From the NCBI RefSeq assembly GCF_003591175.1, contig NZ_QYYG01000002.1:558001-622000 (forward strand): a stretch of DNA of 64,000 nt. Direction: 5' to 3'. Under the pieces are notes generated by a model, which did not search any database, was not told the origin of the DNA, and was given only the letters and a program-made list of their open reading frames with translations. This document shows, one piece after another, positions 3,984 through 25,400 of this stretch. The position numbers were made by a program, and so were the translations under genes. Positions within the stretch are counted from its first letter, which is position 1. Every line of letters begins with the position of its first letter. This DNA is from Serratia inhibens (GTDB lineage Bacteria > Pseudomonadota > Gammaproteobacteria > Enterobacterales > Enterobacteriaceae).

Positions 3984-5180
3984 TTACTCGATAATCTCCA
4001 CGATCTCCAGCCAGCCGTTTTTGCCGCACACCTGTTCGCCGTTCAGCCAACGCCGCAGCATGTCGAGCGCCAGCATCGCCACCGACTCCTGCCGCAGACG
4101 CAAGCCATGGCGCGCCGACCGGTAACGTACCGTCTGGCCGATCCCCCCTTTCGGCGTGTGCAACGCAACGCTCACCCGATCGTCACTCATCGCACTGACC
4201 GCCAGCGCCAATTGCGCGCCCGCCAGCTCTGCCAGCGAACGGGCGCGGGCCAACGTGGTTTCCAGCGTTTCCACACAGTGCGACGGCAACAACTCGCCGC
4301 CGGCCAGCGGTGCGCCTTCGCTCTGCAATTGCAGATTGATCAACCCGGCGCTGAACTGTTCGCTCAGCGCCAGCTTCAACCCTTGTTGGGTTAACCGCTG
4401 CGCCAGCGTCGCCGGCAAGCCTATCGTGCCTTCGAAAATGGTGTTCTCACCCGCCACCTGGTGCACTCGCTCCCACGCCTGTTCCATAGCCGCTCGCTGG
4501 GTCTCCGGGCCGGTCAGTTTCAGTTCAATGATCGGGCTGGAAGAGCGGTAACCGAGCACCACTTCCGGCGGCAGCGGCATGCCGTCCAACTCGGCGGCCA
4601 GATCGCTCTCCGAAGTGCCAAAAGTGGTTAAGCGCAGGCACAGCGGCGGTGCCGGCAGGGGAAAACGTTGGCGCAGGCGCGGAACGATTTGCTGCTCGAC
4701 CATCACTTTGAATTCAGAAGGTACGCCGGGAGTGAAGAACATCGTGCACTTGTTCAGCTTGAGCGCAAAACCGCAGGCGGTGCCAACCGGGTTATCGAGC
4801 ATTTCGGCGTTAGCCGGGATCTGCGCCTGTTTGCGGTTTGAAGCCGCCATCGGCCGGCCACGCCCGGCAAAATAGGCCTCGATGCGCGCCATCCATTCAG
4901 CATGCTCAACCAGCTCAACGCCGCAGGCGGTAGCCGCCGCCAGCGCGCTGAGGTCATCGCTGGTCGGCCCCAGGCCGCCGTTAACGATCAGAACATCAGC
5001 GATATGGCTTCGTTCCTGCAACGTTTCGATCAAAGAGGAGAGACTGTCCCCCACCGTTTCACGACCGCTCATCGGCATGCCCTGCTGGAACAGATAGTCT
5101 GCCAGCCAGGCGGCGTTGGTATCTATAATTTGCCCGTGCAGCACCTCATCGCCGGTGCTGAGCATCTCCACTCTTAACAT
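3984..5180 (-). CDS. yfaY: CinA-like protein YfaY
   Basis: A 398-aa member of the CinA family, matching E. coli YfaY in length and in neighbourhood (near nrd, tyrP and yfaZ). The N-terminal half is a MoaB/MogA-like molybdopterin-binding fold (LSTGDEVLHGQIIDTNAAWLA; VNGGLGPTSDD). The C-terminal half corresponds to the NMN-deamidase (PncC-type) domain, but its usual active-site Ser/Thr region looks diverged, so deamidase activity is doubtful. The ATG start lies behind GGGAGAGATCA. It is monocistronic and convergent with the hok/ERIC region. Confidence 0.88.
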   Translation of the reverse strand: MLRVEMLSTGDEVLHGQIIDTNAAWLADYLFQQGMPMSGRETVGDSLSSLIETLQERSHIADVLIVNGGLGPTSDDLSALAAATACGVELVEHAEWMARIEAYFAGRGRPMAASNRKQAQIPANAEMLDNPVGTACGFALKLNKCTMFFTPGVPSEFKVMVEQQIVPRLRQRFPLPAPPLCLRLTTFGTSESDLAAELDGMPLPPEVVLGYRSSSPIIELKLTGPETQRAAMEQAWERVHQVAGENTIFEGTIGLPATLAQRLTQQGLKLALSEQFSAGLINLQLQSEGAPLAGGELLPSHCVETLETTLARARSLAELAGAQLALAVSAMSDDRVSVALHTPKGGIGQTVRYRSARHGLRLRQESVAMLALDMLRRWLNGEQVCGKNGWLEIVEIIE

Positions 5181-5220
5181 TGATCTCTCCCTTATTTCCG
5201 ATCATTCCACTATAGAAGCC

Positions 5221-5361
5221 TGTAAATAAGTTTTCACTATGCATCACAGGTTAATTTCTGCTGAGGGCATTTTGCGGTTTCCTGCGGCCTTAACCATTGT
5301 AAATATTTCATTACACCACCCGTAACGCCTGTTTGACACGAAATAGTCAATCAACTATCCT
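5221..5361 (+). promoter_or_regulatory. tyrP promoter with two TyrR boxes
   Basis: A strong TyrR-box match, TGTAAATATTTCATTACA (consensus TGTAAA-N6-TTTACA), lies at 5298-5315. A second, weaker one, TGTAAATAAGTTTTCACT, lies at 5221-5238. Downstream is a sigma70 promoter with TTGACA at 5333-5338, a 17-bp spacer and TATCCT at 5356-5361, about 60 bp before the tyrP start. TyrR control of tyrP by tyrosine and phenylalanine is known in E. coli; that it works the same way here is inferred. Confidence 0.75.
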
Positions 5362-5420
5362 GCCGCCCTCGGAATGAGTTACCTATAATTTCCCCAAATC
5401 TTTGACGGGTAGAGAAAAAA

Positions 5421-6629
5421 GTGAAGAATCGCACTCTGGGCAGTGTTTTTATCGTGGCAGGCACCACCATTGGTGCCGGGATGCTGGCGATGCCACTGGC
5501 GGCGGCCGGCGTAGGTTTCGGCGTCACGCTGGCCTTGCTGGTCGGGCTGTGGCTCTTGATGTGTTACACCGCGCTGTTGCTGGTGGAGGTGTATCAGCAT
5601 GAAGAGGCGGATACCGGTCTGGGTACCCTGGCGAAACGCTACCTCGGCGGTGGCGGCCAATGGCTGACCAGTTTCAGCATGATGTTCCTGATGTACGCCC
5701 TGACCGCCGCCTATATCAGCGGTGCGGGTGAACTGCTGGCAGCCAGCATCAGCCAATGGACCTCACAGGATTTCCCCACCACGCTCGGCGTATTGCTGTT
5801 TACCCTGATTGCTGGCGGCGTAGTCTGCATCGGCACCCATTCGGTCGATCTGTTTAACCGCATTTTGTTTACCGCTAAAGTGGTGTTTCTGATCGTCATG
5901 CTGGGCCTGATGCTACCGAATATTCACCGCACCAATCTGATGACGTTGCCGCTGGAACAGGGGCTGGCGCTGTCGGCCATCCCGGTCATTTTTACTTCCT
6001 TTGGCTTCCACGGCAGCGTGCCCAGCATCGTTAACTATATGGGCGGCAACATCCGCAAACTGCGCTGGGTGTTCATCATCGGCAGCGCCATTCCGCTAGT
6101 GGCTTATATATTCTGGCAATTGGCCACGCTGGGGAGCATAAGTTCTACCACCTTCGTCGGCATTCTGGCGCAACAAGCGGGGCTGAACGGCCTGTTGCAG
6201 GCGGTACGCGACGTGGTGGCGTCACCGCATGTAGAGTTGGCGGTACATCTGTTTGCCGATCTGGCGCTGGCCACTTCGTTCCTTGGCGTGGCGCTCGGAT
6301 TGTTCGATTTCCTGGCCGATTTATGCAAACGCCAGAACAACGTGCGCGGCCGTCTGCAAACCGGGGCCATCACTTTCCTGCCGCCGCTGGCGTTCGCTCT
6401 GTTCTATCCGCGCGGCTTTGTATTGGCTCTGGGATTCGCCGCCATTGCGTTGGCGGTGCTGGCGCTGTTGCTGCCGTCATTGCTGGTATGGAAGACGCGT
6501 CAACGGCATCAGGCGCAATACCGCGTCTGGGGCGGCACGCCGGCGCTGGCGCTGGTGTTTGTTTGCGGGATTACGGTGATTGCCATTCAACTGGGCATTG
6601 CCAGCGGCATACTGCCGGCGGTGGGGTAA
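5421..6629 (+). CDS. tyrP: Tyrosine-specific proton symporter
   Basis: Inner-membrane aromatic amino acid permease (402 aa, HAAAP family). It is nearly identical in its N-terminus ([20 protein letters not shown]) and in the [20 protein letters not shown] region to E. coli TyrP. About 11 hydrophobic helices are visible. The start is GTG at 5421, and the homologous N-terminus begins exactly there. The TyrR boxes and sigma70 promoter upstream fit the known regulation. A terminator follows the stop codon. Confidence 0.96.
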
Positions 6630-6649
6630 TAGATTTATCAGTAACACAA

Positions 6650-6672
6650 GGGGGCCAGTTGGCCCCCTTTTT
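6650..6672 (+). terminator. Rho-independent terminator after tyrP
   Basis: GGGGGCC-AGTT-GGCCCCC hairpin followed by TTTTT, 20 bases past the tyrP stop and just before the convergent yfaZ stop. Confidence 0.9.
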
Positions 6673-6679
6673 GTTTCTA

Positions 6680-7225
6680 TCAGAAGCTCAGACCGACTCC
6701 AACATACGGGCCATCGGCAAGCGTGTTGTCACGATGCCCGTCTTTCCCTTCCATCTTTATGTAGCGGTAACCCACATCCACGCTGAGCGGGCGGAAAACA
6801 TTCCAACGCAGGCCGCCGCTGGCCTCGTTATACGCCTTCACGCCGCTGGTCAGCGAGTCCGGTGCAAAATAACCTTCGCCATGCAGGCTGAAGTAACGGC
6901 TGATAGCCCAGTCCAGGCCGCCGCCCACCGCCAACGCGCCACCGTTATCGCCGTCTTTCGGGCTCAGGTAAAGCGCCTTGCCACCTACAGTCGCGGTCAA
7001 CGGCCCCAGCGGCAGACCGAAATTCAGCCCCAGGCTGCCGACGTTGCCGTCGTGATCGCTGCGCGCCCAGTTGCCCGACAACCCCAGCCCGGTGCTACCG
7101 GTGTCTTGGCCGAAGCCGAGGTTGGTGTAATGCTGCCCGGCCTCGCCCGACAGGCTGATAGCGCTCGCCGTACCGGTCACAAACAGCATACCCGCTGCGC
7201 ACGCGACCAAAGTTTTTTTCATCAT
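6680..7225 (-). CDS. yfaZ: YfaZ-family outer-membrane protein
   Basis: A 181-aa secreted beta-barrel-like protein. A signal peptide is visible (MMKKTLVACAAGMLFVTGTASA, cleavage probably after ASA), followed by alternating short hydrophobic strands and an aromatic C-terminus (GVGLSF) typical of BAM substrates. Length and order match E. coli YfaZ, whose function is unknown. The start could be either of two adjacent ATGs (7225 or 7222). It converges with tyrP and is divergent from katA. Confidence 0.9.
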   Translation of the reverse strand: MMKKTLVACAAGMLFVTGTASAISLSGEAGQHYTNLGFGQDTGSTGLGLSGNWARSDHDGNVGSLGLNFGLPLGPLTATVGGKALYLSPKDGDNGGALAVGGGLDWAISRYFSLHGEGYFAPDSLTSGVKAYNEASGGLRWNVFRPLSVDVGYRYIKMEGKDGHRDNTLADGPYVGVGLSF

Positions 7226-7556
7226 GTTTCCCTCTCGTTTTTCATCCGTTCAGAATGATCTGAACCAACCCGCAATAATACGTCCCCGAGTTTATACCAA
7301 AATACAACGAGTCTTTTAGGGATAACGGCTGAAAAATCCTTCTGATATCAGATAATTGTAAAGTTTTGCAAGTAAAAGGCGAATTCACGCTGACGGCGTC
7401 AACGATAACTCAGACCTATTTGCCGTCGTCGCCCAATAGATCTACAAATAGTAATGGCATTAATCAAAATCCGGAGAGAACCCCAGCAAAACCATCATGA
7501 TGAACGCTTAAGCCACCCGAGCATTAACTCAAGGGCAATACGATAAGGAGCAAGTG
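7226..7556. other. Divergent intergenic region yfaZ/katA
   Basis: 331 bp without a gene. It must hold the promoters of yfaZ and katA. The katA ribosome-binding site AAGGAG is at 7545-7550. I could not pick a convincing -35/-10 pair or a clear OxyR site by eye. Confidence 0.6.
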
Positions 7557-8993
7557 ATGAGCAAGAAAGGATTGACCACAGCGGCCGGCGCCCCGGTTGT
7601 CGATAACAATAATGTGATCACCGCAGGCAAACGCGGGCCGATGCTGCTGCAAGACGTCTGGTTCCTGGAAAAGCTGGCCCATTTCGATCGCGAAGTGATC
7701 CCCGAGCGCCGCATGCACGCCAAAGGTTCCGGCGCCTACGGCACTTTCACCGTCACCCATGATATTACCCAATACACCCGCGCAAACATCTTCGCTGAAA
7801 TCGGCAAGCAAACCGACATGTTCATCCGCTTCTCCACCGTAGCCGGTGAGCGCGGCGCAGCAGACGCCGAACGCGACATTCGCGGCTTTGCCATGAAGTT
7901 TTACACCGATGAAGGCAACTGGGATCTGGTAGGCAACGACACACCGGTATTCTATCTGCGCGATCCGCTGAAATTCCCCGATCTTAACCACGTGGTAAAA
8001 CGCGATCCGCACACCAACCTGCGCAACCCGGTGTACAAATGGGATTTCTTCTCCCATCTGCCGGAGTCCCTGCACCAATTGACCATCGATTTCAGCGATC
8101 GCGGCATCCCGAAGTCCTATCGCCATATGCACGGCTTCGGTAGCCACACCTACAGCTTTATCAATGCCAATAACCAGCGTTTCTGGGTGAAATTCCACTT
8201 CCGCTGCGAACAGGGCATTGAAAACCTGATGGATGACGAAGCGGAAGCGATCATCGCCAAGGATCGTGAAAGCTCGCAGCGCGACCTGTTCGACGCGATC
8301 AAGTTCGGTGATTTCCCTCGCTGGAAGCTGCAAATCCAAATCATGCCTGAACACGAAGCCTCGCAGACGCCCTACAACCCGTTCGATCTGACCAAGGTAT
8401 GGCCGCATGGCGACTACCCGCTGATCGACGTCGGCTTCTTCGAACTGAACCGCAACCCGGACAATTATTTCTCAGAAGTTGAACAGGTGGCGATGAACCC
8501 GGCCAACGTGGTGCCGGGCGTCAGCTTCTCGCCGGACAAAATGCTGCAGGGGCGCCTGTTCTCATACGGGGATGCGCACCGCTACCGCCTGGGCGTTAAC
8601 CATCACCAAATCCCGGTTAACGCCGCCAAATGCCCGTTCCACAACTATCACCGCGACGGCGCGATGCGCGTGGACGGCAACAGCGGCAACGGAGCGACCT
8701 ACGAGCCGAACAGCTTCGGTCTGTTCCAGGAACAACCGGATTTCAGCGAACCGCCGTTGAGCCTCGAGGGCGCGGCCGATCACTGGAATCACCGCGAGGA
8801 TAAGGATTATTTCAGCCAGCCGCGCGCACTGTTCAACCTGCTAAGCGCCGAAGAACACCAGCGCATGTTCACCCGTATCGCCGGTGAGCTGTCGCAGGTG
8901 CCGGAACAGATCCAACGCCGTCAGGTCGATCTGTTTACCCAGGTGCACCCGGACTACGGTGCCGGCGTGGCCAGGGCGCTGGGGCTGAAATAA
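7557..8993 (+). CDS. katA: Monofunctional haem catalase
   Basis: Small-subunit, clade-3-type catalase (478 aa) that breaks down hydrogen peroxide. Visible family elements are the distal His in [13 protein letters not shown], the distal Asn in VGNDTPVF, and the proximal haem Tyr in [17 protein letters not shown] 7557 is preferred over the GTG at 7554, since AAGGAG sits six bases before the ATG. The symbol katA is by family; E. coli has no direct orthologue. It is monocistronic with a terminator at 9064-9104. Confidence 0.93.
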
Positions 8994-9063
8994 TCCCCAT
9001 AGCCGCACGCGCCATTAACCTGATTGATTGAAACCTATAGTTTCATGAATATTAAGACGATAC

Positions 9064-9104
9064 ATAAAGCACCGAACTATTCTGCGTCGGTGCTTTATTT
9101 TTTC
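9064..9104 (+). terminator. Rho-independent terminator after katA
   Basis: ATAAAGCACCGA and TCGGTGCTTTAT form a 12-bp stem with an 11-base loop, followed by a T-rich run, about 70 bp after the katA stop. Confidence 0.9.
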
Positions 9105-9486
9105 GAAAACGAAGACGTTTAGAGCAACGCCCTGCTATCGATTAGAAGGCGTTCCGCTCCCAACTCAACACATAAAACCAACGAATGTTTTCATTAACAT
9201 CCAGGATGTTTCCCGCACGGACGCCCCGTCGTACGCAATGACGAAAATAATTTAATAATACAATAAATACAATAAGTTAAATAAAAACACACTACTAACC
9301 AGTAGATGGACGTATGCATTTTCGCAAGAAAAAAATGCATAAAAATCGCCCTCATCACTTCAATTGTGACGAATATCTAATGATTCGAATAAAAAACAAA
9401 CATTATCTTTACCTCTTGTGCACATCTTTGAGAGATATACCGGTGCCTGATGTCAGGCATACCTACCCTACAAGAGGATAAACTCG
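9105..9486 (+). promoter_or_regulatory. AT-rich leader upstream of the short peptide gene
   Basis: About 380 bp clearly richer in A and T than the flanks. It contains a perfect 10-bp inverted repeat (TATGCATTTT at 9313-9322, AAAATGCATA at 9332-9341) and an imperfect palindrome, GGTGCCTGA/TCAGGCATACC, at 9442-9463. The latter may be an operator or a 5'-UTR hairpin. A ribosome-binding site (AAGAGGA) ends nine bases before the peptide ATG. No clear sigma70 promoter could be fixed by eye. A 55-codon frame (9314-9481) without a ribosome-binding site is judged spurious. Confidence 0.5.
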
Positions 9487-9549
9487 ATGAAACTGAAAAA
9501 AATTAGCAAGAAATCGACGAAGAAGCTGGGCGGCGCCACCTGTGGCTAA
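9487..9549 (+). CDS. Putative RiPP precursor peptide (20 aa, Lys-rich, C-terminal Cys-Gly)
   Basis: This short frame encodes MKLKKISKKSTKKLGGATCG. Support for translation: an ATG nine bases behind an AAGAGGA ribosome-binding site, a clean stop, and a position directly ahead of a gene whose product carries a peptide-binding PqqD-like domain. The N-terminal 14 residues hold nine Lys or Ser/Thr-rich repeats and could act as leader. A Gly-Gly pair (15-16) precedes a four-residue Ala-Thr-Cys-Gly tail that could be the modified core. Size and arrangement recall PqqA (about 23 aa), but the Glu and Tyr used in PQQ are absent. The function is not known and no homologue is recognised. Confidence 0.6.
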   Translation: MKLKKISKKSTKKLGGATCG

Positions 9550-9565
9550 CCTGTGCCAATAACAG

Positions 9566-9594
9566 GCAGGGCCAGTCATAAGCACCGGCCCTGC
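9566..9594 (+). other. Intercistronic stem-loop after the peptide gene
   Basis: GCAGGGCC (9566-9573) pairs perfectly with GGCCCTGC (9587-9594) around a 13-base loop, without a T-tract. A smaller CCTGT/ACAGG hairpin overlaps its left side (9550-9566). Such a structure between a precursor gene and its maturation gene could stabilise the short upstream mRNA or attenuate read-through, giving more peptide than enzyme. Confidence 0.6.
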
Positions 9595-9617
9595 ATCCCG
9601 CATAAAAGGAAAATGAC

Positions 9618-10604
9618 ATGGATAAAAACTACCAAACCACCCCCAAGTTCGTTCACAACCTCTGGACCACCAATGAAGACGACGAATATTATCTTCGCTT
9701 TACGGCGGGACTTTACGAAGTAGAAAAAGAAGATGCGCGGGATTTTTATAAAATACGCAGTTATTGCACCGGACATAACACCGTCGCAGAAATCTCAAAT
9801 AAAACAAACCTCCCCGTTCAACGTATCGAAGAAATGGTCGCCTCTCTTCACGAAATAGGAATGGTGAGAAATGAGATAAAGCCGGCCAACGAAGATCTAC
9901 TGAATAAAACCATGCAAGCTTGCGAAATGTGGGCCGAGCAGGTTGAAGAAACGCATTTATTCAACAAATTCCTGTATGGCGACACCAACCGAAACGTCCT
10001 TATCGGTTTTTTCCTGGAAACCTATCATTATATAAAAGCATTCCCTTCCATCATTAACGCCGCGCTTGATAACACAGACGACCCTGAACTCAAAAAGATC
10101 CTCACCGAATACAAGCAGCAAGAAACCGGGCATGAATCCTTCATATTATCGACCTTACTGAAATTGGGCATGAAACAAGCCGAAGTGGAAAGCTCAGTGC
10201 CTTTGGTCTCAACGCTCAATTTAATCAGTATGATAAGCGACCTGTTCAGAATGCATCCCAGCACCGTCTTTCTGATTGCCAAGGTCATCGAGTCTCACGA
10301 TTTTGACCAGGCAGAAGTCACCAATGCCATTCAGGATATAACGCGGCACTATGAGCTGGCGCCCGGCACCCTTGAGCCCTTCTTCCAACACTCACAAATA
10401 GACTACGAACTGGGCCATTCACAGCTGCTCGACAAACATAGCCATCTGGTCAGCCTCGCTGATCTAGAAGAAACTTCTTTCATTTTGAACGCGATACATG
10501 ACATAAAACATGCTATCGACCTTCAGTGTCTTGAAATAGAAGAGTACTACTCAAAAGAAGGCAACTATATTCCTCGTCAACGGGTCGATTACTTCGGTAT
10601 ATAA
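9618..10604 (+). CDS. PqqD-like (RRE) domain fused to haem-oxygenase-like diiron-oxidase-type domain
   Basis: A 328-aa soluble protein. Residues about 22-85 resemble PqqD, the RiPP recognition element: two strand-like segments (YYLRFTAGLYEVE) and a winged-helix part (HNTVAEISNKTNLPVQRIEE). Residues about 95-315 are all-helical and resemble PqqC/UndA-type haem-oxygenase-like oxidases. Candidate metal ligands are E134 and H137 (LETYHY), E169/H172 (QETGHE), E225, and H258/D262/E264/H267 or H294/H298 in later helices. The proposed role is oxidative modification of the adjacent 20-aa peptide. The DNA is AT-richer than its neighbours, suggesting transfer. Start ATG is behind AAAAGGAAAATGAC. The fold assignment is by pattern only; chemistry is unknown. 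Confidence 0.65.
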   Translation: MDKNYQTTPKFVHNLWTTNEDDEYYLRFTAGLYEVEKEDARDFYKIRSYCTGHNTVAEISNKTNLPVQRIEEMVASLHEIGMVRNEIKPANEDLLNKTMQACEMWAEQVEETHLFNKFLYGDTNRNVLIGFFLETYHYIKAFPSIINAALDNTDDPELKKILTEYKQQETGHESFILSTLLKLGMKQAEVESSVPLVSTLNLISMISDLFRMHPSTVFLIAKVIESHDFDQAEVTNAIQDITRHYELAPGTLEPFFQHSQIDYELGHSQLLDKHSHLVSLADLEETSFILNAIHDIKHAIDLQCLEIEEYYSKEGNYIPRQRVDYFGI

Positions 10605-10607
10605 GCC

Positions 10608-11825
10608 ATGTTTCCCATTCTGCTCTCTGCGCTCACCTCCGGCATTTCGATGGCAGTATTCTTTACTGCCATCGCCTGGTTTATAGAGAGCACATTCAAC
10701 TCCAGCCTGCTGGTTTCTGTCGTGCTGTCGTCAGGATATATCGTCACCTTTTTTGCTCTCCCCTCTATTGCTCACCTGACTGACAAAACAACCTGTAAAA
10801 AAATGCTTAATATCATTTACGCTGTGGGTGCCCTCAATGCCCTGGCATTTTTGGTGATAAATCCCGCCGGGCAAGGCGCATGGCTTTCATTTACCGTCAT
10901 TTTGTTATCGACATCGGTATTTACGCTAATACGGGCGTCCGACCAGGTGATCCGCTCCACCTACATGAAAAAGGTGTTGCCCGAACATAACCTGTACCAC
11001 GCCAACCGACTGCTGGAAATGGTCAGACAAGGGATAACCTTTCTTTCCGGCGGGATTGCATTTTTAATCCTGCAGGACAAATCCATCCAAAACGTTTGTC
11101 TGATAGCCCTGTTCTGCTTCTCTCTTTCATTACTTATCAACCGCTACATTCCCCGCGACAAGATCAATGAGACGGGAGAATCAACAGCAGCGGCCCCCAA
11201 AAAACTGACGATGTACCATAACGGTTATGTCTTCTTTCTTGGCGAGAAAAAGCGCATTATCGAACTGCTCTCCTTGTTCCCCTACATTTGCGTTGTCTTT
11301 TTAAACGCATTATATCCTGCATTGTTTACTCGCATCGGTGCCCCCGTCAGCGCATACGCCATTCTCGTCGTCCCCTACGGGCTGGGCGCGATTGCAGGCA
11401 GCATGTTGAATTCCCAGCCTTGGGTGCCGTCCTTAAAATCCGCGTATGTTATCTTTGGCGGCGGGTTCATTATCGGGTTGCTTTTGCCCTTATTATTCAA
11501 AAGTCTTCCCGCCGTCTACGCCTGCCTTTTTGCGATCGCGTTCTGTCATTCCCACATCCGGGTAAGAAGAAATACCCTGATCATGACCCAGGCGGAAAGC
11601 AAAGAACTGGCCCGCATTCTTGCATTCAATGAAGTGTTGTTCATTTGCCTATCCACAGTGCTGGGTCTGGGATTGAGCCTGATAGCCGACCGGCTGGGCT
11701 TTTGGTTGGCCTGGGAGATCGTGATTGCCCTGAATCTGATGGTGCTGTTGCTGATTGTCCTGACGCCGGGTCCGGCGACCCAGCCCTCTACACCAATGGA
11801 AAGCGCTCAGGAAAACGAGCGCTGA
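10608..11825 (+). CDS. MFS transporter, probable exporter of the modified peptide product
   Basis: A 405-aa integral membrane protein with about 12 hydrophobic helices and a central hydrophilic loop (near residues 183-205), the major facilitator layout. The loop between helices 2 and 3 (HLTDKTTCKKML) is a degenerate MFS motif A. The start is 3 bp after the upstream stop and lacks its own clear ribosome-binding site, so translation is probably coupled to the oxidase gene. Clustering with a peptide-modifying enzyme suggests export or self-protection; substrate unknown. The 3' end is followed by an 8-bp inverted repeat TGACTGGC/GCCAGTCA (11823-11860). Confidence 0.75.
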   Translation: MFPILLSALTSGISMAVFFTAIAWFIESTFNSSLLVSVVLSSGYIVTFFALPSIAHLTDKTTCKKMLNIIYAVGALNALAFLVINPAGQGAWLSFTVILLSTSVFTLIRASDQVIRSTYMKKVLPEHNLYHANRLLEMVRQGITFLSGGIAFLILQDKSIQNVCLIALFCFSLSLLINRYIPRDKINETGESTAAAPKKLTMYHNGYVFFLGEKKRIIELLSLFPYICVVFLNALYPALFTRIGAPVSAYAILVVPYGLGAIAGSMLNSQPWVPSLKSAYVIFGGGFIIGLLLPLLFKSLPAVYACLFAIAFCHSHIRVRRNTLIMTQAESKELARILAFNEVLFICLSTVLGLGLSLIADRLGFWLAWEIVIALNLMVLLLIVLTPGPATQPSTPMESAQENER

Positions 11826-11923
11826 CTGGCGGAGCTGAGTAAAAAAATCGGGGCCAGTCATTCCCAATACGGCTGTTCTGCATTTATCCCACGACCTGAA
11901 AATCACATTCCGATCCGTGGTTC

Positions 11924-13309
11924 CTATACGGTGGAACCCTGCTCCGCTACCCATTGCTGCAGCAAACGGCGCGAAATCTTGATACCGCCGTTTTTCAGCT
12001 CGTCGGGTAAAGCGAACAGCGCCGTCGGGCGCTGGAAATTGGCCAGCTTGCCCTGTGACCACGCCAGCAGCGTGTCCAACGCCAGAGGCGATTCGCTGTC
12101 GATCACCGCCACCGGCCGCTGTCCAAACTCCGCATCTTCCACCGGTACCACAAACGCCTGCGTAATCTGCGGATGCTCCATCAGCACGCGTTCAATATCC
12201 TCCGGTTGCACACCTTCCCCCCCGCTGAAAAACAGGTTATCCATCCGTCCGATAATTCGCAGCTCCCCCTGTTCCATCACGCCGCGATCGCGGGTATGAA
12301 ACCAGCCTTGCTCGTCGGCCAGCGGCTGCAAAGCACCGCGATGCCAGTAGCCCAACGCCAGGCTCTGCGCGCGGATCCACACTTCCTCATCCACCAGTCG
12401 GATTTCACGGCCGGCCAAGGGTAACCCAACGCCCGGCCGCGTATCGGCGCGCTTGGCGCAGACCGTAGAAGCCAGTTCGGTCAGACCATAGCCGCACCAA
12501 CAACGAATACCCGCTGCCTCCGCCTGTTCGGTCAGCGCAACCGGGATCATCGCCCCGCCCAGCAGTACCTCTTTTAGCCTCAGATCTTCCAGCGGCTGCG
12601 CCAACAGCCGCCACAGCTGCGTCGGCACCAGCGAGGCATGAGTGCAGCCCGCCAATGCGTCGGCCAAGGGGGATATATCACGCACCACCAGCGTGGCACC
12701 CGCAGCCAGCCAGCGCCAGACAATGCCCTGGCCGGATACGTGAAACAGCGGCAGGGAAAGCAACCAACGATCCTGCGACTGAAAATCCATCAACCGCAAC
12801 ACCCCTTCCGCGCTGGCTAAATGCCCGGCGCCGTTATGCCCGGCGGCCTTTGGCATACCGCTGGAGCCTGAGGTCAGCGTCAGCGTCGCCAGCCGCTGCG
12901 GATCCCAGGTGGGCAAAGCCAGCCAACGCGGCTCGGTAGAGGGCGGGGTCAACGGAATCAGAGCGGCCGACAACGCCGGCAAAGGCTCCGGGCTGAAGAC
13001 AAAAGCCATATCCAGGTCGGGCAACAGCCTGTCCAGCAGAGAAACGGGCAAGGCCGGGTTCAACGGCAACAGCCGCGCACCGCACTGCAGCAGCGCCAGA
13101 TAGGCCAGCAACAACGGATAGCTGTTCTTGCCACACAGCGCAACACCACTGCCGGGTTCAACACCCTGATGCTGAAAATCGGCCGCCAGCTCATCCACCT
13201 GGCGTTGCAGTTCCAACCAGTTGACCGGCTGCCGGCCGACAATCACCGCCGTCGCCTGCGGTTGCCGCTGCGCCCAATGTCGCCACGGCCAATCGTTCAA
13301 CTGCGCCAT
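11924..13309 (-). CDS. menE: o-Succinylbenzoate-CoA ligase
   Basis: Acyl-CoA synthetase of menaquinone synthesis that activates OSB to OSB-CoA. ANL-superfamily motifs are visible: the P-loop [13 protein letters not shown], the [10 protein letters not shown] segment, and the C-terminal hinge plus the catalytic Lys in [11 protein letters not shown]. The start chosen is ATG 13309 ([12 protein letters not shown]..., 461 aa), which aligns with the E. coli N-terminus; ATG 13315 and a longer frame to 13360 are possible but less likely. It overlaps the end of menC by 13 bases and is last in the men operon. Confidence 0.95.
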
Positions 13310-14280
13310 AGGCATTCCATCGCTTGCAGATCCTGCAACGGCAGGCGGCTGCCCGGCCAACGCCGCAGCAACTGCGCCTGCATCAAATCGAGCGTATCCA
13401 GCCCGGGAACGGTGGCCGGCGTCAGCCAGTGCGCGATGCGTGCCAGTTGGGTCAGCCCCAGACTGGATTCGAGGCTGGAACTGATCACCGCCGTCAACCC
13501 TGCCGCATGGGCCTGCTCCACCAGAGCCTGACAGCGGCTCAGGCTGCCGACCAGCGTGGGCTTGATCACTATCGCCGCCACGCCCGGTTCGGCCTGCACC
13601 ACAAAATCCGCCTCGCGCACGCTCTCGTCCCAGGCGATGGCAATACCGGTCGCCAGGGCGAAATCCCGCGATTCATCACGGGTTTGGCAGGGTTCTTCGA
13701 GAAAGGCGATGCGATCGCGCAGCGCCGGATTGACGTATTTGGCGAAACCCTCGGCTTTGGCACGGGTCCAACTGCGGTTGGCGTCCAGCCGCAAGCGCAA
13801 ATCCGGCAGCGCCTCCAGCAGCACGTTAACGATCATGCCGTCGCGCACCGCCTCATACAGCCCAACCTTCACCTTGGCGACCTTCTCGCCCGGCAGCGCG
13901 CTCAACACGTCGAACAATTCATCGGGATCGCCGGTGCACAGCGGCGCTTTGCGGTAGTCGGCCTGCAACGGGAGCCGTTGTGCCAACTCCGCCAGAGCGC
14001 AACTGGTGCCGAACGCCACCGAAGGCAGCGGACTGTCTGCCGGCAACGGCCCTGCCTGCCAGCCCTGCAGCCAGGTCAGCGTAGCCTGTTCGGCTTCGGC
14101 CAGCGTTTCCTGGCTGAACTCCGGCAGCGGCGCAATCTCGCCCCAACCTTCCTGCTCGCCCTGCCGCAGATGAATCAGCAGGCCATCGCGGGTTTTCAGC
14201 CGCTGGTTACGCAGCACCACTCCCGCCTCCATCGGCAGGCGGTAACGGTAAACCGCGGCGTTGCGGATCGGCGCGTTCAT
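13297..14280 (-). CDS. menC: o-Succinylbenzoate synthase
   Basis: Enolase-superfamily dehydratase (327 aa) converting SHCHC to OSB. The catalytic Lys lies in KVKVGLYE, metal ligands lie in RLDANRSW and FLEEPC, and the second acid/base segment is AWDES followed by VIKP. Its start shares one base with the menB stop (TAATG), so translation is coupled. Confidence 0.96.
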
Positions 14281-15137
14281 TACGGGTTACGCTTGAATTT
14301 GCTGAAGTCCGGCCGGCGCTTTTCGTTAAACGCGTTGCGCCCTTCCTGGCCTTCGTCGGTCATGTAGAACAGCATGGTGGCGTTGCCCGCCAACTCTTGC
14401 AGGCCCGCCTGGCCGTCACAGTCGGCATTCAGCGCCGCTTTCAGACAGCGCAGCGCCATCGGGCTGTTCTGCAGCATTTCGCGGCACCAGCGCACGGTTT
14501 CTTTTTCCAGATCCGCCAGCGGCACTACGGTGTTGACCAGGCCCATATCCAGCGCGGCGGCGGCGTCATACTGGCGGCACAGGAACCAAATCTCACGCGC
14601 TTTCTTCTGGCCGACGATGCGCGCCATGTAAGAAGCCCCCCAGCCGCCGTCGAACGAACCGACTTTCGGGCCGGTCTGGCCAAAGATGGCGTTGTCCGCC
14701 GCAATGGTCAGATCGCACATCATGTGCAGCACATGGCCACCGCCGATCGAATAACCGGCCACCATTGCCACCACCGGTTTCGGGCAGGTGCGGATCTGGC
14801 GCTGGAAGTCGAGTACGTTCAGGTGATGCACGCCACTGTCGTCCTGATAGCCGCCGTAGTCGCCGCGCACTTTCTGATCGCCGCCGGAACAGAACGCTTT
14901 ATCGCCGGCACCGGTGAGAATAATGGTGCCGATACCGTCGTCGTAACGGGCATTGGCCAGCGCTTCCAGCATCTCTTTCACCGTATGCGGACGGAACGCG
15001 TTGCGCACTTGCGGGCGGTTGATGGTGATTTTAGCGATGCCGTCGGCGGATTTGTGATACAGGATATCCACGAAATCACCGGAGCAATCCTGCCAGTCGA
15101 TGGCGGCATACAGTTGTTCTTCATTCGGATAAAGCAT
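14280..15137 (-). CDS. menB: 1,4-Dihydroxy-2-naphthoyl-CoA synthase
   Basis: Crotonase-fold enzyme (285 aa, the usual length) closing the naphthoquinone ring from OSB-CoA. The oxyanion-hole and substrate segments [14 protein letters not shown] and [15 protein letters not shown] are present, as is the [13 protein letters not shown] loop. It lies 11 bp after menH and is coupled to menC. Confidence 0.97.
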
Positions 15138-19260: not shown

Positions 19261-19424
19261 AGTTCAAAAAACGGCCAACCGGGCATTATACGACTATACT
19301 GAGAAAGCATGTTCCTGCCTGCTGCGAACCCACGTCAGATCTGCCCGGCGTTAAAAACAGGATGTTCACGATCTCCCAGCGGTTTCACCGGCTGTCCTTT
19401 GGGTCAGATGTAAGGAGCTTTTGT

Positions 19425-22400
19425 GTGAAAGAAATACTAATCAATTGGTTAAAAAAACAACGTAAAACTGCAAAAATAAGAACGTTGCCGTTACGGGGGA
19501 ATAAAAACGCCCCTGAGACCAACGGTAACGCCATCAAGGCAGAACTGTTTTCTGTCGACCAAATGGAACGCTATGGCCAGCGTCTGGCACGCTCGCACAA
19601 ATTGGCGACGCGCAAGACCCCCTATTTTTTGCTGAAGCGGCTGGACGAAAATGAGCGCATTCTGGCTGAAAGCTGCCATCAGTTGAGCAACGGCCAAAAA
19701 TCCAGCATGACCCCGGCCGGCGAATGGCTGCTCGATAACTACTATCTGATCGAAGAACAAATCCGCGTCGTGCGTCATCATCTGCCGAAAACCTTCGGCC
19801 GCGGCCTGCCGCAGCTGGCTGCGCCGCATAATTGCCCGCGAATCTATGACGTGGCCGCCGAAGCCATTGCACACGGCGACGGTCACTGGGGCTCGGAAAG
19901 CCTGACGCGGTATATCGCCGCCTATCAAAAAGAAGCCAACCTGACGCTGGGCGAACTCTGGGCGCTGCCCGGCATGCTGCGCCTGGCGCTGATCGAGAAT
20001 CTACGGCGCGTCAGCGTCGAAGTCGCACAGGCGCAAAGCGAACGCAATCTGGCCGACAGCTGGGTGACCAAAATGCTGGAATCGGCCGAAAACGATCCGG
20101 CCAACCTGATCGTGGTCATTGCCGACATGGCACGCTCCAATCCCCCGCGTACCAGCGCTTTTGTCGCCGAGTTGGTGCGCCGTTTACAGGGCCACGGCAC
20201 CATGCTGGCGCTGCCGCTCACCTGGGTAGAGCAGCGGCTGACGGAAGTCAGCCTGACGTCGGATGAGTTGATCCATCGCTTTAACCAGCAGTTGGCCGTC
20301 AGCCAACTGTCGGTCAGCAACAGTATTTCCGGCCTGCGCCAGCTCAGTGAAATGGACTGGGCCGAGTTTGTCGAAACCATGAGCCAGGTCGATCAGACCC
20401 TGCGTGACGATCCGGCGGGGGTTTACCCGCTGATGCACTTCGACACCCGCGATAACTACCGTCATGTGATCGAAATGCTGGCGCGTCACTGCTCGCGCAA
20501 TGAGGTGCAGGTCGCACAGCACGTGCTGAATATGGCGCAGGTGGCAGCCGAAGATCCGTCCAGCGATCCGCGCCGCAACCACGTTGGCTACTATCTGATT
20601 GACGATGGCCGGCCGGAGCTGGAACAGCAGCTGGAGGTTCAACTCGGCCGCATCACCCGCTTGCGCCATGCGCTAAATCAGGCACCGCTGCTTTCCTGGT
20701 TAGGCAGCCTGAGCCTGATTACCACCGCCATCTGTGCGGAGTTACTGCGCCATGCCTACAGTACCGGCATCAGTTGGGGGTTGGCGCTGCTGTTCTTCCC
20801 GATGGCGGCAGTGGTCAGCCAGTTCGTGCTCAACCTGCTTAGCGAGGTCACTACCCGCAGCCGCACACCGCAGCCGTTGCCAAGGCTCGATTTCTCCTGC
20901 GGCATTCCCGCCGAGTTCCGTACCCTGGTGGTGATACCGACGCTGATCGGCAGCAAAAGCGGCGTCGATAAGCTGATCAACGCGCTTGAGGTCTGTTATC
21001 TGGGCAACGCGATGAAGCATCTGCACTTTGCCCTGCTCACCGATTTCAACGATGCGCCGCAAAAACAGCACGCGGACGATGCCTCTCTGCTGGCCTATGC
21101 CTGCCAGCAAATGGAAGCGCTTAACGGCCGCTATCCCTGTGAAGGCCCCAGCCACTTTTTCCTGTTTCACCGCGATCGCGAGTGGAATGAAAAACAGGGC
21201 GTATGGATGGGGCTGGAGCGCAAACGCGGCAAGCTGAATGCGCTGAACGACTGGCTGCGTAACCGTGGCAACACCTTCTGCACCCAGGTTGGCGCCGGCC
21301 TGGAAGTGCTGAAAAACGTGAAATACGTCATCACCCTCGACAGCGATACCGTATTGCCGCGCGAAAGCGCCCACCAGTTGATCGCCGCCATGGCGCACCC
21401 GCTTAATCATCCGCAGTACGACGCGCGTCAACAGCGGGTGGTGGAAGGTTACGCCATCCTGCAACCGCGCATGGCGGAGGAAATACCGACTTACGGTCAG
21501 GGCCGCTACGCTGCGCTGTGCAGCAGCACACCGGGTAACGATCCCTATACGTTGATGGCCTCGGACATTTACCAGGATCTGTTTGGCGAAGGATCCTTTA
21601 TCGGCAAGGGCATCTACGATGTCGACGTGTTCTCGCACAGCCTCAAGGGCACCTGCCCACCGAATCTGGTGCTGAGCCACGATCTGCTGGAAGGCTGCTA
21701 CGCCCGCTCCGGCCTGCTGAGCGACGTGTTGTTGTACGAACAGTATCCCAGCAATTATCTGGTGGACGTAGCGCGCCGCACGCGCTGGATCCGCGGCGAC
21801 TGGCAACTGCTCAACTGGTTGCTGCCACGAGTAAAAACCGAAGACGGTACCCGCACCGCCAACCCATTGAGCACCCTGTCGCGCTGGAAGCTGTTCGATA
21901 ACCTGCGCCGCAGTCTGACGTCGCCCAGCCTGCTGTTGCTGCTGTTTTGCGGTTTTGTCTGGCTGCCGAACACCCGTTACTGGCTGGCGGTCTTCACCAT
22001 CTTTCTGCTGTTGCCTACCCTGCTGGCGCTGGTGCAGGATGTTGTGCGCAAACCGCCGCGCAGGCCTTTTCTGCAGCATCTGCGACTGGCGATGAACGGC
22101 TCGCTGCATCGGCTGGCTCAGGTCGGTCTGCGGCTGGCGACGCTGCCGCATGAAGCGCTGTATAGCCTAAAAGCCATCGCCATTACCCTTTGGCGGCTGC
22201 TGATCAGCAAACGCAACCTGCAAGAGTGGACCAGCTACGCTCAATCCGCCGCTCGCCAGCAAGTTACTCCGAAAAACTTTTATCGGGCGATGTGGATCAA
22301 CCCGTTAGCCGGCGTGGCGTTGTTGCTGTTTAGCTTCCTGCATAACCCGATGGCGTTGTTTATCACGCTGCCCCTCGCCACCCTGTGGTGCCTGGCCCCG

Positions 22401-25400
22401 TTCCTGCTGTGTTATCTCAGCCATCAACCGCAGCGCAGTAAAACCGCGCTCGACGATGAACAGCGCCGCTTCCTGCGCCACACCAGCCGCCAAACCTGGG
22501 ACTTCTTCAATACCTTCGTTAATCAGCAGGAAAACTGGCTGCCGCCGGATAACTATCAGGAGATACCGGAACCGGTGGTGGCACACCGCACTTCACCGAC
22601 CAATATCGGGCTGTCGTTGCTGGCTAACCTCACCGCCTATGATTTCGGCTACCTGACGCTCAGCGAGGCGCTGCGGCGCATTGAACTGACGCTTAATACG
22701 CTGGACCGCATGGAACACTATCGCGGTCACCTGTACAACTGGTACGACACCCGCACATTGGAGCCGCTGAACCCGCGCTATATCTCCAGCGTGGACAGCG
22801 GCAACCTGGCCGGCCACCTGCTGACGCTCAGCGCCGGTCTGCCCGCGCTGGCTCGTCAGCCGGTCATCAGCCCGCAATTAGTGCTGGCCGGGCTTGGGGA
22901 CAGCCTGCAACTGCTGGAACAATACTGGGGAGATGCCGCCCACAAGAACCTGCCGAAACTGCGTAATCATTTTGAACAGGCGTTAAACAGCCACCCCGCC
23001 GCGCTGCAGGCCGAGCTGAACGCCATGCGCAACTACAGCAACGGGCTGCAGGAACCGGCGTTGAATCACGGCGAAGAAACCAGACGCTGGGCGGGTGCGC
23101 TGCATCAGCAACTGAACGAGCTTTGCGCGGAATGGGCGCTGTGGTTCGGCTGGCTGGGCGACAACGTGCCCGAGTTGACACAGGTGCCAAGCCTGCACTG
23201 GCTGGCCAATCCGCCGGCCCGGTTGACGCTGTCCGCAGAGCAGCAAAACCTGCTTGACGCCGCCGGCGCGCTGGCGCAAGAACGGCTGACGCAGTTGCAC
23301 AGCCTGCAACAGCGGCTGGAAAAAATGGCGCAGATGGACTTCAACTTCCTGTATGACGAGTCGACCCATTTCCTGGCCGTCGGCTTTAACTGCGATCAAA
23401 ACCGGATGGACAGCAGTAAGTACGATCTGCTGGCATCGGAAATCCGCCTGACCAACTACGTCGCCATCGCCACTAACCAGGTGCCTCAGCGCAGTTGGTT
23501 TGCGCTCGGCAGACTGTTTACCGTGATCGAAAATGAGCCGGCGCTGATGTCGTGGAGCGGCTCGATGTTCGAATACCTGATGCCGCAGTTGGTGATGCCG
23601 GCCTACCCCGACTCCCTGCTGGTGCAAATGTGCCGCGCAGCGGTGGAACGACAAATCGCCTGGGGTAAGGAGCGCGGTGTGCCCTGGGGCATCTCCGAAT
23701 CCGGCTATTTCGGCTTCGATGCCGATCAAAACTACCAGTATCACGCCTTTGGCGTACCGGGGCTGGGCCTGCGTCGCGGGCTGGGCGACGATATGGTGGT
23801 CGCGCCTTACGCTACGTTGATGGCGTTGATTGTCGATCCGGATGCCGCCTGCAGCAACCTTGTCGCGTTGGAAAAAAATGGCGCCAAAGGGCGCTACGGT
23901 TTTTACGAGGCGCTGGATTACACCACCGCACGTCTCAGTCGTGGTCAGCTGTATGTAATTATCCGCTCCTATATGGCGCACCATCAGGGTATGAGCTTCC
24001 TTGCCCTGTCCCATCTGCTGCTGGATGCCCCTATGGTGGCACGCTTCGCCGATTATCCCGCATTCCAGTCGACGCGCTTGCTGCTGCAAGAACGGGTACC
24101 GGATGCGGTTGAGCTGTACAGCACCCGTCGTCACTTCGAAACCCATGAAGGCACCATTACTCCGGCCAGCTTCGTCGCACGCGAATTCAACCGGGTAGAC
24201 TCACCAATCCCGGAAGTGCAGTTGCTGTCGAACGCCAACTACCACCTGATGCTAACCCAGGCCGGCGGCAGCTACAGCCGCTGGCAAAACCTGGCCCTGA
24301 CCCGCTGGCGCGAAGACGCCACTTGCGACAATTGGGGCGCTTTCTGTTACCTGCGCGATCCGCAAACCGGTGAGGTATGGAGCAATACCTGGCAACCGAT
24401 CGGCGGTACAGCCAAGGGATACAGCGCGGTGTTCAACGATGCCGGCGCCGAATATCAGCGCAACCAGGGCTTGCTGTCGATCAAAACGCAGGTTGTGGTG
24501 TCGCCGGAGGACGATATCGAACTACGGCGCATCACTCTGGTAAACCGCAGTAAACAACCGCGCACCATCGAAATCACCAGCTATGCGGAAGTGGTGCTGG
24601 CGCCGGCCGGCAACGATCTGGCTCACCCGGCGTTCAGCAATTTGTTCGTTCAGACCGAACTGCTGCCGGATCAGGACGCCATTTTGTGTCATCGCCGTCC
24701 GCGCGAACCCAAAGAGAAATGCCCGTGGCTGCTGCATATGATGACGGTACAGGGCCGCTCCAGCCAGACCTCGTTCGAAACCGATCGCGCCAAATTTATC
24801 GGCCGTGGCCGCACCCCGGCCAACCCGCAGGCGCTGTATCAAAATACGCCGTTGACCAACAGCGCCGGGCCGGTCATCGATCCGATTATCGCCATCCGCC
24901 AGCGCGTGGTGCTGGAGCCCAACGTGCCGCTGACGCTGGATATTTTCTACGGTGTTTGCGAAGACCGCGTCAACAGCCTGGCCATGCTGGAAAAATACCG
25001 CGATCGCCATCTGGCGGACCGCGTGTTCGAACTGGCCTGGTCGCACAGCCAGGTGGTATTGCGCCAGCTAAACGCCAATGAGGAAGATGCCAATCTGTTC
25101 AACCGCCTGGCGAGTGCCGTCGTGTTCCCTGCACAGGAGATGCGCGCCGCCAGCAGCGAAATCATCCAAAATCGCCGCGGCCAGTCGGGGCTATGGGGGC
25201 ATTCAATCTCCGGCGATCTGCCGATCGTTCTGTTGACGGTGACCGATGGCGAGAACATCGGTCTGGTGCAACAGCTGATCCAGGCACACAACTACTGGCG
25301 ACTGAAAGGGCTGCAGGTGGATCTGGTGATCCTTAACGAGGATGCCGGAGGTTACCGCCAGGAGTTGCAAAACCAGATAATGGGCCTGATCGCCGCCGGT

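Follow-up and report, generated by a model that had tools for sequence, protein, structure and literature searches.

The 64,000-nucleotide stretch of Serratia inhibens contig NZ_QYYG01000002.1 analysed here (the window) carries, between katA (7554-8993; PF00199) and the minus-strand gene menE (11924-13360; AMP-binding), three co-directional plus-strand genes which together resemble a pathway for a ribosomally synthesised and post-translationally modified peptide (RiPP). The first is a candidate precursor gene (9487..9549) for the 20-aa peptide MKLKKISKKSTKKLGGATCG, with a Shine-Dalgarno-like AGAGGA ahead of its ATG. It is followed by the gene of a 328-aa fusion protein (9618..10604), composed of an N-terminal domain modelled as a RiPP recognition element (RRE; 9618..9878) and of a domain assigned by its sequence to the haem-oxygenase-like diiron oxidases (HDOs; about residues 102-328, 9921..10601). 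After an intergenic gap of 3 bp begins the gene of a 405-aa protein of the major facilitator superfamily (MFS) type (10608..11825), the presumed exporter, whose matches to MFS_1 (score 32.3, E 6.3e-8; Pfam cut-off 33.4) and TIGR00900 (E 3.4e-18) both stay below cut-off, the former only slightly. The original prediction had given these genes, their coordinates and the short gap correctly and had read them as the minimal make-modify-export layout of a RiPP; the comparisons described below support this layout, with the modification and the product as its conjectural part.

For the comparison of homologous loci, the enzyme clade was delimited by the shared C-terminal end NY[IMF]PR..VD[YF]F, and more distant matches were kept apart. 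It comprises eight loci, namely the window, L013, L016, Pantoea (L014), Xenorhabdus (L015), L024, L025 and Rhizobium etli (L017), and in all of them a short open reading frame (ORF) ending in Cys-Gly-stop stands directly upstream of the enzyme gene, at distances of 29-70 bp. The window peptide recurs unchanged in L013 and L016, where one extra ATG stands ahead, and its counterparts are MKLKKVSKKSTKKLGGATCG in Pantoea, MKMKKVSKKSNKKLGGATCG in Xenorhabdus, MKLEKTNKKDQSAVVVVTCG in L024 and MKLKKVDAAKTSTRRVNGATCG in L025; for the latter two, which offer several in-frame starts, the one adjoining the Shine-Dalgarno sequence was taken. The R. etli precursor is an annotated hypothetical protein of 67 aa, ends in VVLMCG and has a net charge of -2. 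Cys-Gly is the sole part common to all clade peptides, so that this C-terminal pair, and not the richness in lysine proposed originally as a search mark, is the invariant feature.

Such ORFs rarely arise by chance. When the 500 bp upstream of the enzyme genes were shuffled with dinucleotide composition preserved and searched for plus-strand ORFs of 15-80 aa ending in Cys-Gly, they appeared in 1/300 shuffles for the window, 2/300 each for Pantoea and Xenorhabdus, 7/300 for R. etli, 3/300 for G555 and 14/300 for G1106, as compared with 6/6 of the real sequences. Codon changes in the peptide are mostly silent, with 11 silent and 3 replacement changes between the window and Xenorhabdus and 5 silent and none replacing against S. 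quinivorans, and a Shine-Dalgarno-like sequence was seen by eye ahead of all ten peptides compared. Because the Cys-Gly-stop ORF is present in 8/8 loci, is rare in shuffled sequences and changes mostly at silent positions, the short peptide ORF is a real gene. The clade thus shows what is expected of a RiPP system, an encoded precursor co-conserved with its modifying enzyme in all eight loci, and the predicted conservation of the peptide beside homologues of the fusion was borne out.

The N-terminal domain of the enzyme gave no match to PqqD (PF05402) in Pfam at E values up to 1, and a sequence search of the PDB returned weak winged-helix and spurious matches and no PqqD; the matches obtained from Pfam and PDB were to winged-helix regulators, e.g., TrmB (3e-4) and MecI (0.05). 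Since Pfam gives no PqqD match, the assignment as RRE rests on structure. Modelled alone from five sequences, the domain reached a predicted local distance difference test (pLDDT) score of 79.4 and is predicted to fold into three strands followed by three helices. In the Foldseek search against the PDB, the first row was the PbtF RRE and the second PqqD; the remaining rows up to 7 were a cyanobactin heterocyclase, McbBCD (three rows) and ThcOx, which carry RREs as well. Rows 1-9 of VIA-align were RREs or RiPP enzymes; the PbtF RRE scored Z 8.7, the beginning of MccB 8.0-8.5 and a leader-bound lasso peptide B1 protein 7.0. The order of strands and helices is that described for RREs in a 2025 study (PMC12710340), in which many sequence-divergent RREs were recovered through structure search. 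An RRE fold is therefore well supported by the model, though not beyond doubt, and the domain would be expected to bind a peptide. Of the PqqD-like peptide-binding domain proposed before, the fold stood up in the model, while a sequence match to PF05402 did not.

The C-terminal domain matched PF14518 (1.6e-7) and PF03070 (1.4e-4) in Pfam, and a six-sequence profile retrieved the structures 3dde (4.4e-11), BesC (7twa; 4.1e-4), a 4-aminobenzoate synthase (1.8e-3) and CT610 (CADD; 4.9e-3). A haem-oxygenase-like fold is thus indicated by the sequence profile. A metal motif of the form E-H-E-H-(D/E)-H is common to HDOs (PMC11363339), and candidate ligands occur in this order as E169, H172, E225, H258, D262 (or E264) and H267. 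All six compared sequences share E169, H172, E225, H258, D262 and H267 without exception, and likewise E134 and H137. Moreover, 17 of 19 rows, among them every one of the six Cys-Gly-type enzymes, show a helix-3 spacing of H-x3-(D/N)-x4-H; the exceptions are the second protein of L052 and a 156-aa fragment of L055, and this long spacing may be a mark of the clade. The full-length AlphaFold model from a five-row alignment was poor (pLDDT 48.3) and was not used for claims on the fold or the metal site, for which reason the metal site is deduced from sequence. By profile and motif, the earlier assignment as a haem-oxygenase-like domain of the diiron-oxidase type appears sound.

The cassette shows signs of mobility. 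Since katA and menE lie just 42-47 bp apart in six of six cassette-free genomes of the same genus that were checked (G002, G003, G006, G010, G018 and G025), the cassette is an insertion between these genes in Serratia. The acquisition that had been suggested from the AT-rich composition (GC 0.444 for the fusion and 0.501 for the MFS gene, 0.578 and 0.630 for the flanking katA and menE) is supported by this empty site. Relatives of the enzyme occur in Serratia quinivorans (92% identity), S. proteamaculans (91%), Pantoea ananatis (80%), Xenorhabdus bovienii (64%), two further genomes of the same class (43% and 42%) and on plasmid p42f of R. etli (26% in alignment A3; 28.8% over 84% by tblastn), and the genes flanking the Pantoea and Xenorhabdus copies differ. 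The distribution is sparse: the cassette was present in 3/30 genomes of the genus, and Cys-Gly-type enzymes in 2/394 genomes of the order, 2/369 of the class and 3/398 of the phylum as well as in 1/194 of the order of G1106 and 4/392 of the family, in samples which overlap and of which each includes the window's own or the centre genome. An MFS-type gene follows the enzyme in 7/8 clade copies.

Taken together, we consider it probable (roughly 0.7) that the cassette is a minimal RiPP-type system on a horizontally moving segment, in which the RRE-HDO fusion oxidises the C-terminal Cys-Gly of the precursor. The modification of the precursor, its chemistry and its product are proposed as follows. 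The RRE would bind the N-terminal part of the precursor as leader and thereby bring the free C-terminus to the metal site, where the carboxylate of the terminal Gly could coordinate Fe1. Activation of oxygen would then lead to oxidation of the Cys-Gly end, our first guess being a desaturation or oxidation at Cys and our second an oxidative cleavage at the terminal Gly, a preference held with low confidence. Finally, host peptidases could trim the remainder and the MFS protein could export the product. Oxidation of peptides by HDOs has precedent because the C-terminus of the Leu-Ala-Arg substrate coordinates Fe1 in the HDO MboA (PMC13185094) and because dehydrogenated thiovarsolins, which are RiPPs, are lost when the HDO gene varO is deleted (PMC6511847).

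Several observations weigh against this proposal. On the side of the recognition domain, the best Foldseek E value was 0.017, with none below 0.001; PqqD came only at rank 19 of VIA-align (Z 6.5), under GATOR1 (6.9), 2xdv (6.9) and Rv2067c (6.8), and the program warns that Z values below 8 may reflect a common arrangement. A charge complementarity of peptide and RRE was considered and rejected, as the two charges did not correlate (Spearman -0.37, p 0.29, n 10). In the oxidase domain, the H-x3-D-x4-H spacing is, by eye, two residues longer than HSKIDAKH of 3dde or HIDVEVGH of BesC, both read as H-x3-(D/E)-x2-H, and the metal site is read from motifs next to a poor full-length model. The R. etli copy has no MFS neighbour, the MFS protein of L025 looks by eye to be of another type and has a class V aminotransferase ahead of it, and no convincing peptide was seen within 500 bp upstream of the more distant Tistrella enzymes described below.

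Apart from the Cys-Gly clade, distant HDO-type operons within the same bacterial family likewise begin with a candidate short peptide gene, which six of the seven distant genomes examined possess; these peptides were chosen by eye among several short ORFs and without shuffle control, and the RRE-like N-termini of the distant enzymes are predicted from profile alignment into the region and from sequence. One such operon lies in the S. inhibens genome itself, on contig C27 (L026, reverse complement 6815-14060), where a 43-aa peptide ending in RRALGALVK, found also in the congeneric genome G009 (L009), is followed by a terminator-like stem and then by two tandem HDO proteins with RRE-like N-termini (scanned with Pfam). 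Downstream ORFs there look, by eye, like a class III aminotransferase and an aldehyde dehydrogenase, together with a PhyH-type oxygenase and an MFS protein. In G1508 and G1626, two genomes of one genus (L052, about 4990-9221, and the corresponding part of L053), the peptide MEIIILETKLPE[QK]DKPRPAA[ED]Q, with a strong Shine-Dalgarno sequence and a stem-loop, precedes three ORFs and an MFS-like protein; in L052, Pfam recognises only the first of the three as HDO, and weakly (0.01, below cut-off). The peptides of G1369 (L054, about 4038-11209) and G1595 (L055, 5365-8671), again of one genus, have unlike leaders and the common end RP[IV]LM[AP]AHL, and are followed by three and two HDO genes, respectively; the operon of G1369 further encodes a class III aminotransferase and an ATP-grasp protein resembling amino-acid ligases. 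The peptide C-termini are accordingly conserved within each genus (RP[IV]LM[AP]AHL, PAA[ED]Q and GALVK). As observations in their own right, the second HDO of L055 (6472-7472) is split over two overlapping frames, by frameshift or sequencing error, and on plasmid pTM3 of Tistrella mobilis (L018, 3588-5663) one ORF of 691 aa joins a pair of HDO units whose N-termini are RRE-like; this pair matches the query at 24% identity, over 64% of its length.

With C-termini that differ and as many as three HDO-type enzymes, these operons point to a family that would be hard to detect, since its precursors are so short and Pfam misses the RRE. More speculatively, RRE-HDO fusions could form an undescribed RiPP superclass, in which carriers of 20-67 residues present free C-termini (Cys-Gly, Ala-His-Leu, Ala-Glu-Gln or Leu-Val-Lys, depending on the lineage) to a single diiron-type oxidase or to several of them, with small exported metabolites as the outcome; we hold this extension only tentatively. 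If it is true, the product of the Cys-Gly type would be a thiol compound in oxidised form, which might serve as a metal ligand. If our proposal for the window is true, it would describe a near-minimal RiPP system, with one very short precursor and one enzyme combining recognition and chemistry domains, it would provide a ribosomal, readily engineered peptide substrate for the HDO superfamily, and it would add oxidative C-terminal Cys-Gly chemistry to RiPPs.

An alternative option, which we regard as possible yet clearly less probable, is that the peptide is a disposable ribosomal carrier, on whose C-terminal residues the RRE-HDO protein builds a small molecule that is freed by proteolysis and exported by the MFS protein, so that the product would be amino-acid-sized and probably thiol-containing instead of a peptide. 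Conservation of only the C-terminal residues would fit such a carrier, as would the presumed exporter, MFS proteins usually transporting small molecules. Small-molecule genes are moreover found in the related operons, i.e., the class V aminotransferase of L025, the class III aminotransferase and ATP-grasp protein of L054 and the aminotransferase, dehydrogenase and oxygenase ORFs next to the HDO pair of C27 in S. inhibens, and two HDOs, FlcE and FlcD, are known to remove carbons from a Cys derivative (PMC11363339). The window cassette, however, contains no ligase, aminotransferase or protease within the ORFs scanned, and in other respects the two explanations coincide.

The remaining explanations deny the peptide its role as substrate. 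It could instead be a regulatory leader peptide acting by attenuation, with the HDO working on a free metabolite, which we consider unlikely. This idea draws on the stem-loops that lie between the peptide and enzyme genes in 8/10 operons, seven with perfect arms, and on the terminator-like T-rich tail that follows the stem in C27 and L054. The stem-loop of the window (GCAGGGCC...GGCCCTGC, 9566..9594, plus strand) is imperfect, with a minimum free energy of -23.5 and a shuffle z of -2.95 (elsewhere, where computed, -0.97 in L025, -1.44 in Pantoea and -4.32 in L024); R. etli has no stem at this place (z +1.30), and in L055 the gap measures just 4 bp with the start taken. As no T-run follows the window stem on the plus strand, attenuation at this locus was rejected, and the stem is possibly a read-through or mRNA-stabilising element. 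A leader peptide is likewise disfavoured by the conservation of the protein sequence under silent codon changes, by invariant residues that are the last two before the stop, and by the N-terminal domain of the enzyme, whose model shows a peptide-binding fold. Still less likely, in our view, is that the N-terminal domain is an ordinary winged-helix domain for DNA binding or dimerisation, attached to a metabolic HDO next to an incidental peptide. The weak winged-helix matches, the lack of PqqD at the sequence level and the non-RiPP rows of VIA-align at Z 6 to 7, some of them above PqqD, would agree with this, but the top rows of both structure searches are RREs or RiPP enzymes and the peptide is co-conserved throughout the clade.

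With regard to known systems, RiPP, RRE and HDO form a familiar frame; apparently undescribed are their combination, so tiny a precursor and a layout with a single enzyme. Methylobacterium PqqCD likewise joins a haem-oxygenase-fold protein and an RRE in one chain, and its PqqD part is the second-best Foldseek row of our domain. PqqC, however, is a cofactor-less oxidase and precedes PqqD in that chain, whereas in the cassette the RRE-like domain is N-terminal and the HDO-type ligand set is present. In pearlins (3-thiaglutamate; TglA/TglHI), a short peptide is similarly oxidised at a C-terminal Cys end, but this Cys is added by a peptide aminoacyl-tRNA ligase and the oxidation uses a multinuclear non-haem iron-dependent oxidative enzyme (MNIO), neither of which was found in the 13 window proteins scanned with Pfam. 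The haem-oxygenase-like VarO is needed for a dehydrogenated ribosomal peptide, thiovarsolin, whose cluster also has an MFS gene; that system differs by its YcaO-TfuA pair, its repeating precursor and a VarO tied to an Arg double bond (PMC6511847). In the cassette, by comparison, no enzyme other than the HDO-type protein was found; this protein carries an RRE-like domain in the same chain, and the core peptide terminates in Cys-Gly. A haem-oxygenase-like gene has also been reported for thioamide clusters of Sinorhizobium (PMC8120280). The mangotoxin enzyme MboA is likewise an HDO with a peptide substrate, bound to Fe1 through its C-terminus, yet that substrate is a ligase-made, non-ribosomal tripeptide, the partner MboB gates a second oxidation step, and an RRE is not mentioned in the accessible text (PMC13185094). 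FlcE and FlcD of fluopsin C biosynthesis act as HDOs on a Cys-derived substrate, and FlcD has an extra N-terminal domain; here the substrate is a free small molecule and the additional domain is called a superhelical linker (PMC11363339). The accessible text of the RRE survey contains no mention of PqqC, TenA or PF14518, and "oxygenase" and "heme" appear once each, in the reference list (PMC12710340). We found no description of an RRE-HDO fusion or of a Cys-Gly-ending precursor in the accessible parts of the open-licence literature, and a subscription paper or preprint could exist.

The neighbourhood of the cassette was scanned with Pfam for 10 window ORFs between 104 and 19160 (E up to 1e-10) together with the fusion, the MFS protein and the peptide, while menC, the ORFs at 6323-7255, 13324-14364 and 19362-23999 and everything past 24 kb lay outside the scan. 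Among these 13 proteins, no radical SAM enzyme, YcaO, cyclase or protease was found, and no YcaO-TfuA pair, the mark of thioamide RiPPs, so that the earlier statement on their absence holds for the scanned ORFs. A role in anti-phage defence was considered and dropped, PADLOC giving no match for the three proteins scanned. In sequence collections, phage records gave no match, 35 stretches of viral contigs fitted a pattern and none was a relative, complete E. coli genomes gave no DNA match, and plasmid matches were confined to R. etli, Tistrella and a plasmid of Rhizobium sp. T1473, which matches the last 42 residues of the enzyme only, at 95% identity. Matches in G038, G045, G050 and G057 covered the HDO part only and never the N-terminal domain.

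Regarding upstream signals, a sigma-70 scan of 9000-12000 returned 2 sites, compared with 5.2 in shuffled sequences, and none 5' of the peptide. A perfect inverted repeat, TGCCTGA-TG-TCAGGCA (9444..9459, plus strand), lies 5' of the peptide start and could be an operator or a stem in the 5' untranslated region. Among L013, L014 and L015, it is identical in L013, Xenorhabdus (L015) has another inverted repeat at a similar place, and Pantoea (L014) has none with arms of at least 6 upstream of its peptide. Further details concern individual copies. In L036 (G007), the menE match beside the cassette holds one in-frame TAA, and the R. etli p42f copy adjoins genes with AIPR, PD-(D/E)XK and Z1 domains. 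In L025 (G1106; reverse complement, about 5627-12001), the Cys-Gly copy is followed by the class V aminotransferase (Pfam) and by MFS-like and EamA-like ORFs (by eye). Next come a radical SAM/SPASM protein, recognised by Pfam, and an ORF that by eye resembles an agmatinase.

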